Shown in pieces: positions 20 to 4,707 of a stretch of DNA of 33,885 bases. The DNA is from a virus, in IMG/VR virus record IMGVR_UViG_3300006751_000062, positions 1 through 33,885 of that record; one strand, 5' to 3'. How positions within the stretch are numbered: position 1 is the stretch's first letter; every line of letters begins with the position of its first letter. The position numbers and the translations under genes are program-made. The notes below the pieces were generated by a model, which searched no databases, was not told the origin of the DNA, and saw only the letters and a program-made list of their open reading frames with translations.

Positions 20-730
20 ATGAAGACTAAAATCATCTGCAAGTGGTGCGGCAAAGCCTTCACCCCAGAGAAAAAAAGCAACCGAAAAGCCTGCTACTGT
101 AATGCCAAGTGTAGAGGTGCGTTTCATAATCAAGAGCAAAGAATTAGGCGACAAAAGGATAAAGATTACAGAGAATTCATAAATAAACAGCAAAGAGAGG
201 CATACCACAGAGTGAAAGCAGACAGACGGGAAAAAGCTAACGCATACAGAAAGAAACACAGAGACAAAATCCTCGCTGCAGGCCGAGAGTCTTACCACAG
301 AAACAAAGACACACCGGAATATAAAGCAACGGCATCGAGGAATGGAAAGAAATGGTATCGAAAGAACAAAGAAAAGCTAAAAGCTAAATGGAACGCACGT
401 ATGAAAGAAGACGTAGTGTTCAGCTTGAAAAACAAGACAAGAACCAGAATAAGTAATGCAATTCGGTATTATGTTAAAGGATTACGCAAAAGTAATGGAA
501 CAGTTGAACTCTTAGGCTGTTCACTATCATTCTTCAAAAAACATATTGAAAAGCAGTTCACTAAAGGCATGTCTTGGGATGAGTTCTTAGAGGGTAAGAT
601 ACACCTCGACCACATAAAGTCATGCTGGTCTTTCGACCTGTCCAAGGTAGAAGAACAGAAAAGGTGTTTCAATTACAAAAACGTTCAACCACTATGGGCC
701 GGTGACAACTTATCAAAGAACCGCTTTTAA
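20..730 (+). CDS. HNH endonuclease-like protein with N-terminal zinc ribbon
   Basis: This 236-residue protein is probably a DNA endonuclease. The N-terminus carries a Cys-rich zinc-ribbon-like cluster (C7-x2-C10, then C25, C27 and C31). A long, very Lys/Arg-rich middle (about 35-130) is probably helical and DNA-binding. The C-terminus has the phage HNH pattern: L-D-H at 196-198, then a C-F-N-Y-K-N-V-Q-P-L-W segment and a final N-L-S-K-N. That C-terminal pattern is typical of free-standing phage HNH nucleases, some of which are homing enzymes. The gene looks richer in A than the structural genes, which would fit separate acquisition. I see no Shine-Dalgarno sequence before the ATG. A structured region and a terminator follow. 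Its target and whether it is active are not visible. Confidence 0.7.
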   Translation: MKTKIICKWCGKAFTPEKKSNRKACYCNAKCRGAFHNQEQRIRRQKDKDYREFINKQQREAYHRVKADRREKANAYRKKHRDKILAAGRESYHRNKDTPEYKATASRNGKKWYRKNKEKLKAKWNARMKEDVVFSLKNKTRTRISNAIRYYVKGLRKSNGTVELLGCSLSFFKKHIEKQFTKGMSWDEFLEGKIHLDHIKSCWSFDLSKVEEQKRCFNYKNVQPLWAGDNLSKNRF

Positions 731-736
731 AGACTT

Positions 737-879
737 TCAGTTGAGGACAACTAACAACAAAAACTAGGAGGAAAGAAAGGCCTCCATATCTACGGTGTTT
801 GTGGATTAAAGTTGGGCAACACCTCAACTGACCCCGCCCCACAGGGTGTATGTCCCTTGTGGTGTGCGGGGATTTTTTT
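737..879 (+). ncRNA. Candidate structured RNA ending in an intrinsic terminator
   Basis: This gene-free stretch contains several complementary segments. 737-746 can pair with 822-831 as a perfect 10-bp helix. Inside it, 748-752 can pair with 810-814, and GGAGG at 767-771 pairs with CCTCC at 781-785 around a 9-nt loop. Competing pairings exist: 739-743 with 748-752, and GGTGTT 794-799 with AACACC 818-823, which would form a pseudoknot with 810-814/825-829. The block runs straight into the terminator hairpin at 832-879. It could be a small phage RNA or the structured 3' end of the HNH transcript. AGGAGG at 766-771 is a perfect ribosome-binding sequence with no start codon at a usable distance. 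The pairings are seen directly; an RNA function is inference. Confidence 0.4.
832..879 (+). terminator. Rho-independent terminator
   Basis: A strong GC-rich hairpin is followed by seven T residues. CCCCGC (832-837) pairs with GCGGGG (866-871), and CCACAGGG (839-846) pairs with CCC-T-TGTGG (854-862) with one bulged T. The loop is TGTATGT, and the T run is 873-879. It ends + strand transcription from the HNH gene before the repeat and promoter region upstream of the RNA polymerase gene. Confidence 0.85.
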
Positions 880-968
880 GTGACTCCTTACTACTTACCC
901 TCACAAGAGGAAGAGTGATCGCTTCGCTCACAGGGAAAGAACGAACGCTCCCGCTAAACGCCGAAGGG

Positions 969-1019
969 TACTATCATTGTTGGTACTCCATGAAAATACT
1001 ATCATTGTAGGTACTCCAT
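969..1019 (+). repeat. Two 23-bp direct repeats (possible operator or promoter elements)
   Basis: Copy 1 is 969-991 and copy 2 is 997-1019. They differ at one position (982 G/T-side context versus 1009 A in the run TTGT-N-GGTACTCCAT) and begin at a 28-bp interval. Each starts TACTATCATTGT and ends GGTACTCCAT. They lie in a gene-free region just upstream of the small HNH gene and the RNA polymerase gene. A tandem pair of this length is characteristic of a protein-binding site or a promoter pair. I did not find a further full copy in the window. Confidence 0.8.
977..1005 (+). promoter_or_regulatory. Sigma70-like promoter candidate within the repeats
   Basis: TTGTTG at 977-982 and TATCAT at 1000-1005 are separated by exactly 17 bp. 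The -10 matches five of six consensus positions, the -35 three of six. The -35 lies in repeat copy 1 and the -10 in copy 2, so a protein binding the repeats would cover the promoter. Transcription would start near 1012 and read the small HNH gene and then the RNA polymerase gene. The assignment rests on motif and spacing only. Confidence 0.35.
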
Positions 1020-1423: not shown

Positions 1424-3634
1424 ATGGTTAATTCTTTAGACTGCGTAGAAGAAGGCCGTAAACGCTTCTATAACCGCACAAAAAGACTCCAAAAGAAACG
1501 GCAGGAGTCCATCACACTTCATGGGCGGTACTTCTACAAAAAAACACTAAACAAACTTTCAGAAAGAATTTCCCTTGTTGTCGCTAAAAAAGCGAAGGCG
1601 GGTATCTACGCAGCCGAGTGGAAACTTATTCAAGACTTAAAGCCACTACTTGTTGCCCACCTAGCACTTACGACAATCTTAGATACCTTATCTATCCAGC
1701 AAAAAAGAACAGCAATTGCCTCTAAAATAGGACAGAAGATGCAAGATGAGATCAACTTCTCTGCCCTTAAAAAGAAGTATCCTGCGTGGTGGAAGAGCCT
1801 AAAGGCAGAAAAAGACAAGCGAGTCGCCTATAAATTCAAGCGTATCTTTGCTGTCAGAAGGGCTGCAAGTGAGTTTGGGGACGCTTGGAAACAGGATTTA
1901 CCGCAAGCCTCCTTGATCAGAGTGGGTTTATCCTTGGTAGAACTCTTCAAACAGGAGACAGGACTGATCGAGTATGCTAGACAGAAAGTTTCTAGAGGTC
2001 GCTGGCAGTATGTAGTTTTACCCACGAATGGGGCAATCGACATAATTAGTCACATTCAAAAACAAGGTAGCCTAATCTCTCCCTGCTACCTTCCTCTGAC
2101 AGACAAGCCTTTAGATTGGACTACACTTGACGAAGGTGGTTACCAGTTTCCATCAGAGGTAGGCTGGAGATTCCTCAAAAGGGTCAGAGGAAAGACAAAA
2201 AAAGAGAGTTCATATGAAACTGCCTTCAATGCTGCCAACACTCTACAGAGAGTCCCCCTTAAGGTTAACCCTTGGGTGTCAGAGGTAGCACTAAGGTTAG
2301 TGGAGTTTAGTAAAGAGGAAGAAGTGACACGTAGGGAGCAAGACCGTGGGCTTCTCCTTGAGACCAATGGTAACCTTGCTTACAGAAGGCGTCAAGCTAA
2401 ATATCACGAAGGGCGACTTAAGCGGTTACCTAAACTAATAGCTACGGACAACACCTTGACCCTTGCGAGACGCTTCAAGGATCAGACAATCTATATGCCC
2501 GTTCAGGCTGACTTCAGGGGTCGCCTATATTATGCACCAACCCATCTGAACCCCCAAGGTAGCGATCTCTCTAGAGGGTTGCTTGAGTTTGCTACACCAA
2601 CTTCTGTCAGAGGTAATGAACATTGGTTCCTAGTTGGAGGAGCCAACAATTGGGGAATCAAAGGTAGCCTACAAGAGCGTCAGGATTGGGTATTGTCGCA
2701 TGAGAAACAGATCAAGGGTGTAGCAGATGACCCTCTCGGTAACCGCTGGTGGCAAGATGCAGCATCTCCCTATCCCTTCCTAGCTTTCTGCAGGGAGTTC
2801 AAAGAGTGGATCACCAATAGGATTACCTTCAAGACTCACCAACCTGTTCGCCTAGACCATACTGCATCTGGCTTACAAATAGTCGCTGCTCTGACTAAAG
2901 ATGAGGAGCTACTCCGACTCACCAATGTAGCTCATCTGGATTATCCTAATGACATCTACTCCTCCATCTTATCTAAACTGAAGGAGGGACTACAAATGTC
3001 CCACCGTCCAGAGGATCATGCGTGGATCAGTTTAGGCATCGACAGGGACTTGGTGAAGAAGCTGACCGTATCCTATATGTACGGCTCCACCTACTACGGT
3101 CTGGAGAAGACACTCATCAAGTGGTATGTCGAGCAATCAGCAGATATCTTCAAACGTGAGGTTTACAAAGAGGCTCGTCTGTTACTACACTCTTATTACA
3201 AGGCTCTCAACGCTGTCTCCGAAACCCCCATGAAATTCATGGAGGAAACCCGTCAACGCCAGAAAGATGAGGTACTATCATGGACTACGCCATCTGGCTT
3301 TCCCGTTTCCAATGACTACCGAAAATCCCAATCGGTTCGCATCAAGACTCTAATAATGGGTGAAGCTGTAGTTTGCAGGGCCAACATTGACACTAGAGAT
3401 TTCAGCCAAAGAGCCGCTAGACAGGCGTTGCCAGCCAACCTCGTTCACGCCTACGATTCAGCCATTCTTCACACCGTACTGACCTCTGAGGAGTGGCCCC
3501 TCATCATGACCCTCCACGATTGTTACTGTATTCCCCCTGCATATTGTGACAAAATACAGAAAAACATCAAAAACACATTATGTGGTATGTTCGGGCTTGA
3601 CCTCCCCCAAGATGTGGTATATACTGCATCCTGA
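1424..3634 (+). CDS. T7-like single-subunit DNA-dependent RNA polymerase
   Basis: This 736-residue phage RNA polymerase would transcribe the middle and late genes. All core motifs are visible by comparison with T7 gp1: D-F-R-G-R-L-Y-Y at 363-370; motif A with catalytic D478 (L-D-H-T-A-S-G-L-Q); the O-helix with R541, K545 and Y553-G554 (T7 R627, K631, Y639); and motif C L-H-D-C with catalytic D699 (T7 D812). At 736 residues it is clearly shorter than T7 RNA polymerase (883), the reduction lying mostly N-terminal, where promoter recognition and melting occur in T7. Its promoters are therefore unlikely to match T7 sequences. No in-frame ATG lies just upstream and the start has no Shine-Dalgarno sequence. 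A sigma70-like promoter lies at 1303-1331. Confidence 0.97.
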   Translation: MVNSLDCVEEGRKRFYNRTKRLQKKRQESITLHGRYFYKKTLNKLSERISLVVAKKAKAGIYAAEWKLIQDLKPLLVAHLALTTILDTLSIQQKRTAIASKIGQKMQDEINFSALKKKYPAWWKSLKAEKDKRVAYKFKRIFAVRRAASEFGDAWKQDLPQASLIRVGLSLVELFKQETGLIEYARQKVSRGRWQYVVLPTNGAIDIISHIQKQGSLISPCYLPLTDKPLDWTTLDEGGYQFPSEVGWRFLKRVRGKTKKESSYETAFNAANTLQRVPLKVNPWVSEVALRLVEFSKEEEVTRREQDRGLLLETNGNLAYRRRQAKYHEGRLKRLPKLIATDNTLTLARRFKDQTIYMPVQADFRGRLYYAPTHLNPQGSDLSRGLLEFATPTSVRGNEHWFLVGGANNWGIKGSLQERQDWVLSHEKQIKGVADDPLGNRWWQDAASPYPFLAFCREFKEWITNRITFKTHQPVRLDHTASGLQIVAALTKDEELLRLTNVAHLDYPNDIYSSILSKLKEGLQMSHRPEDHAWISLGIDRDLVKKLTVSYMYGSTYYGLEKTLIKWYVEQSADIFKREVYKEARLLLHSYYKALNAVSETPMKFMEETRQRQKDEVLSWTTPSGFPVSNDYRKSQSVRIKTLIMGEAVVCRANIDTRDFSQRAARQALPANLVHAYDSAILHTVLTSEEWPLIMTLHDCYCIPPAYCDKIQKNIKNTLCGMFGLDLPQDVVYTAS

Positions 3635-4313: not shown

Positions 4314-4350
4314 GGCTTGGTAGTCTGCCTTAGAAGCCCATTGGAGACGT

Positions 4351-4707
4351 ATGCCTGCGGCCTACAAAAGTAAACTCGAAAAGAATATGGGGCATCTATT
4401 GGAAACAATGGGTGTCCCATATTCCTACGAGCCTCTTCGGATACCGTATGTCAAGCAACACTACTACCTACCTGACTTCTACATTAACGAAGAGTACTTC
4501 ATTGAGACCAAAGGTCGCTTCCTCGGTATTGACCGAAAGAAGCACCTACTAGTGAGGGAGCAGAACCCAGACATTGACATTCGCTTCGCATTCCAGAATC
4601 CGAAGGCACGTTTGAATAAGCATTCTAAAACGACCTACGGTGAATGGTGTGAGAAGCATGGGTTTCAATGGTGTGGTAAGAAAGTTCCACGCTCATGGTT
4701 CTCATAA
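4351..4707 (+). CDS. Endonuclease I, Holliday junction resolvase (T7 gp3-like)
   Basis: This 118-residue enzyme resolves branched DNA and, in T7, degrades host DNA. The alignment to T7 gp3 is clear by eye. Catalytic E10, D42, E52 and K54 correspond to T7 E20, D55, E65 and K67, within L-P-D-F and F-I-E-T-K-G. The following D-R-K-K-H-L-L-V-R-E-Q segment is nearly identical to T7. Near the C-terminus Y-G-E-W-C-E-K-H-G-F also matches. It is shorter than T7 gp3 (149) because the N-terminal extension and the basic C-terminal tail are missing. A GGAG lies at a good distance upstream of the ATG. The next small gene overlaps its last 13 bases. Confidence 0.95.
   Translation: MPAAYKSKLEKNMGHLLETMGVPYSYEPLRIPYVKQHYYLPDFYINEEYFIETKGRFLGIDRKKHLLVREQNPDIDIRFAFQNPKARLNKHSKTTYGEWCEKHGFQWCGKKVPRSWFS

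Follow-up and report, generated by a model that had tools for sequence, protein, structure and literature searches.

The segment from 731 to 879 of the window, i.e., of the whole 33,885-base virus record analysed here, which has a T7-like phage gene order, is read, with a probability of roughly 0.55, as the structured 3' terminus of a T7-like phage transcript that starts further upstream, is probably an early one and is capped by an intrinsic terminator. This reading relies on a terminator hairpin of -27.0 kcal/mol (z -4.5) followed by U7, and on a branched domain with a z of -4.5 whose closing helix, P1, has a pairing probability of about 1. It also relies on the place of the domain, which starts 7 nt past a stop codon and has a repeated promoter-like element downstream, and on four related contigs in which an early gene, a structured RNA, HNH2 and the RNA polymerase (RNAP) gene follow one another in this order. 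Among the options offered in a preliminary description of this DNA, that of a 3'-UTR-derived, terminated RNA fits, given the start so close to the stop codon and the end in a strong terminator.

HNH1, HNH2 and the RNAP gene lie on the plus strand. The gene preceding the flagged RNA is HNH1 (20-730), a 236-aa ORF for an HNH-like endonuclease that shares 34-37% identity with phage proteins annotated as HNH endonucleases (tblastn); its PHROG matches are weak and a Pfam search at E 0.05 gave none. Downstream lie HNH2 (1072-1299), a 75-aa ORF for a small HNH protein that is kept before the RNAP gene in relatives, and a T7-type single-subunit RNAP (1424-3634; 736 aa; PHROG 414, E 1.4e-136) with about 25-29% identity to those of cultured phages among the matches listed. 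Then come a Gp2.5-like ssDNA-binding protein, an endonuclease, a primase/helicase, a DNA polymerase, an exonuclease, and head-tail and tail genes. Region 4326-4451, at the start of the endonuclease gene, includes an inverted repeat near 4381-4426, and 4351-4451 (-40.6 kcal/mol) is the strongest GC-corrected fold of the window. Between HNH1 and HNH2, the flagged stretch had been described as gene-free, which is true to the extent that this can be judged; it is overlapped by small ORFs at 669-842 (minus strand) and 846-1010 (plus strand), and the one of 54 aa has no Pfam match.

The predicted fold of 731-880 has a minimum free energy of -57.7 kcal/mol (z -4.1). Taken without the terminator, the domain 737-831 folds at -30.0 kcal/mol and none of 200 shuffles was as good, so that both segments came out far better than shuffled sequence, a check that had been proposed at the outset. 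P1, the perfect 10-bp helix noticed first (737-746/822-831), pairs with a probability of 0.85-1.0, and the GGAGG/CCUCC hairpin (767-785; stem 767-771/781-785) with a probability of 1.0. Together with the terminator, these two elements prevail in the predicted ensemble. An AUCUACG/UGUGGAU hairpin that had been overlooked (788-806; stem 788-794/800-806) has a probability of 0.78-1.0. The inner helix is displaced: the pairing first proposed, 748-752/810-814, has a probability of 0.02, and 751-755/811-815 forms instead (0.74). The proposed pseudoknot (794-799/818-823 with 810-814/825-829) has a probability of 0.0 and shares bases with the 10-bp helix, which makes the two mutually exclusive. Forcing either stem costs 6.6-6.7 kcal/mol, values that come from folds made to contain single stems, as Vienna cannot score the full pseudoknot; together with the exclusion by the 10-bp helix, they led to the rejection of this pairing.

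It should be kept in mind that 10 of 1352 windows fold lower after GC correction, which places the stretch in the lowest 1% and not at the extreme. The terminator alone could matter, the fold upstream of it being an incidental spacer structure. The window contains three inverted repeats that are perfect over 10 bp and have a loop of no more than 100 nt, the interior 747-821 folds only moderately by itself (z -1.5), and conservation of the domain was not found in the searches described below. However, this explanation is unlikely in view of the shuffling result for the whole domain, and a perfect 10-bp repeat arose in just 22 of 5000 shuffles of 731-831. The flagged fold is taken as real as a predicted, thermodynamic structure, and ordinary in kind.

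The stretch had been said to end exactly in a terminator, and so it does: the stem occupies 832-871 and the U-tract, seven T in the DNA, 873-879, with 879 as its exact end. Region 832-879 shows the two features that define an intrinsic terminator, a stable G+C-rich stem and a U-tract that follows at once, and it resembles in this the rho-independent terminators of phage transcription units. It differs from them by the 95-nt branched domain that abuts the stem without a gap, the 3' strand of P1 (822-831) directly adjoining it. In a simple scan, terminator sites in the region were no more numerous than expected by chance, so it is the stem's own energy that carries the argument. The same terminator was not seen at the corresponding place of the related contigs.

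Under the transcript-end reading, the RNA would fold once past the HNH1 stop codon into the 10-bp closing helix, the inner helix and the two hairpins, and transcription would stop near 879, at the end of the terminator that this branched domain abuts. The next unit would start downstream with two repeated promoter-like sites, HNH2 and the RNAP gene. The domain would most likely serve the 3' end of the HNH1 message, either by stabilizing it or by shielding the terminator from upstream sequence. The promoter-like or operator-like sites are two plus-strand direct copies of the 23-nt TACTATCATTGTTGGTACTCCAT (969-991 and 997-1019) that are 96% identical. An exact 17-mer of the repeat is found twice in contig L087, at 1021 before HNH2 and at 1406 at the start of the RNAP gene. 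Since only two full copies occur in the window, TACTATCATTGTTGGTACTCCAT is not an obvious genome-wide phage promoter. The early region of contig L014 holds several TACTATCAT sites.

Searches for homologues of the domain took several routes. An exact 18-mer from the P1 region is absent from viral contigs, and a single-sequence covariance model of 735-833, run on 61 sources, found only itself. Rfam gave no match reaching the gathering score over the whole window; at E values up to 10, the only matches were weak ones to snoRNAs and CRISPR repeats, which are unrelated. The only relative of HNH1 in viral contigs, L222, has other sequence directly adjoining the gene and no similar element in its 3' flank. 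The window RNAP used as a lone query gave no match, and an RNAP alignment led to six loci, four of them with sequence upstream of the RNAP gene; the same alignment matched nothing in prokaryote genomes. Tracing relatives by the TACTATCATTGTNGGTA repeat gave L087 as the only related contig. Two further contigs, L006 (97% in DNA polymerase) and L007, end before they reach this region. As no homologue of the domain was found, its fold is neither supported nor refuted by covariation.

The related contigs (L087, L012/L014 and L088) encode RNAPs 45-51% identical to that of the window, and in each of them the early genes are followed by an intergenic RNA, then by HNH2 and RNAP. Their intergenic RNA has a design of its own, a three-way junction made of a closing helix of 9-13 bp, AGU, a CCNNC-UAUUAAGAY-GNNGG hairpin, a short GGG/CCC hairpin and a joining strand, with CUAUUAAGA as the invariant loop of the P2 hairpin. 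In these contigs it lies at L087:631-704, L012:803-878, L014:1395-1469 and L088:502-571. Many further members were found by a filtered pattern scan of IMG/VR whose first pattern fixed the loop sequence, among them L098:4250-4321, L109:5704-5775 and, on the minus strand, L127:678-753, L136:2120-2191, L125:373-445 and L210:698-771. When the loop was unconstrained in a second pattern, each of the 20 distinct sequences with the three-way-junction design again had CTATTAAGA, while 32 sequences lacking it resembled chance matches. This RNA usually begins just past a stop codon and is found before HNH2 and RNAP, in the gap between a DnaB helicase gene and a small ORF (L098, L127, L136 and others) and upstream of a GpA-type terminase gene (L109). 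Over 24 distinct sequences, of which the DnaB-group members are mostly close to each other so that independent lineages are well below 24, 90% of the cells pair and 14 of the 20 pairs change on both sides. Covariation in the same set is strong, with a score of 0.526 against 0.220 in shuffles (none of 500 as high), and slid controls do not exceed 0.18.

None of seven member loci reaches the Rfam gathering score, and the L087 RNA gives nothing even at E up to 10; one scan of prokaryote genomes found no copy. The CUAUUAAGA three-way junction is a candidate new RNA family, without an Rfam match and occurring in unrelated viral contexts. Its candidate roles are those of a ribozyme, a processing site or a regulatory element.

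The window's domain occupies the same place as this RNA, before HNH2 and RNAP, and also has a long perfect closing helix soon past a stop codon, but the conserved nucleotides of the relatives' RNA are all missing from the window. The covariance model, with which known members score 55-88 bits, finds no member in the window; the only exact CTATTAAGA there lies at 5-13 on the minus strand. Membership of the window's element in the CUAUUAAGA family is ruled out by this model. The domain could still be a positional, perhaps functional, replacement of the relatives' RNA or a form of it diverged beyond recognition. The synteny is identical, the outline is similar (a perfect closing helix of 10-12 bp that begins no more than about 15 nt past a stop codon and encloses hairpins), and L087 resembles the window closely in other genes (84% identity for the endonuclease, 79% for the primase and 76% for HNH2). 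However, the model is blank at 737-831, where the best local score with filters off is 0.6 bits, and the window has neither the CCNNC-UAUUAAGAY-GNNGG hairpin nor the GGG/CCC helix; such a relationship is improbable. Also improbable is a reading in which the interval before HNH2 and RNAP would always house a structured RNA with a role in the early-to-middle switch, the unrelated fold of the window doing this work here. If it were so, most members of this phage group would carry the new CUAUUAAGA three-way-junction family there.

The AGGAGG at 766-771 indeed has no ATG, GTG or TTG downstream at a normal distance, as had been pointed out. Its description as a free-standing ribosome-binding sequence finds no support, given that the window holds 28 copies of AGGAGG, that gene starts show no Shine-Dalgarno enrichment and that 767-771 of this copy are buried in the GGAGG/CCUCC hairpin. 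Matches of at least 4 nt to a Shine-Dalgarno sequence are found at 5 of 26 chosen gene starts, against 17.8% of random positions; the host may rely little on such sequences. It is very improbable that the element is a free small RNA of the phage in which an exposed AGGAGG binds or titrates ribosomes, a reading suggested by a terminated structure whose AGGAGG has no start codon. The motif is common, Shine-Dalgarno matches are not enriched at these 26 starts, and this copy is paired in a hairpin rather than exposed.

A second structured RNA is a leader hairpin on the plus strand at 1337-1418 (z -4.7), in the gap between HNH2 and RNAP and directly before the RNAP gene. In the window it consists of a 15-bp P1, an internal loop UUUCUGC/CUCUCUCUU, P2 and an apical UUGGUC loop. 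The architecture is common to the window, L087, L012/L014 and L088: a P1 of 14-15 pairs, interrupted in L012 and L088 by a bulge or a small internal loop, then an internal loop whose 5' side is U-rich (UUUCU) and whose 3' side has CUCUCUU, then P2 and, at the apex, a small stem enclosing UUGGUC. The stem sequences vary with compensatory changes and pairing is kept in four of four, a descriptive count that includes the close relatives L012 and L088 and was made on stems hand-set from each sequence's own fold because the MAFFT alignment shifts the stems. The stem of L087 leads into U6, and the TACTATCATTGTTGGTA repeat at the polymerase start comes next, so a terminator, an attenuator and a processing hairpin are all possible. 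The early mRNA of T7 carries RNase III processing hairpins, and structured intergenic RNA surrounds its RNA polymerase gene. By analogy, the element at 1337-1418, with its long stem and internal loop, would be the one that most resembles these hairpins, whereas 731-831 is branched rather than one long hairpin.

Neither the CUAUUAAGA RNA nor the polymerase-leader hairpin is described in the open-access literature searched, which does not prove that no description exists. The flagged fold is most simply the end of a transcript with an unusually elaborate 3' structure. The synteny check has exposed two conserved phage RNAs, each better supported than this fold, and the place of the flagged element and the hairpin before the polymerase gene are more interesting leads than the element itself. 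Lying just before a T7-type RNAP gene, the 1337-1418 hairpin could control the main transcription switch of the phage.
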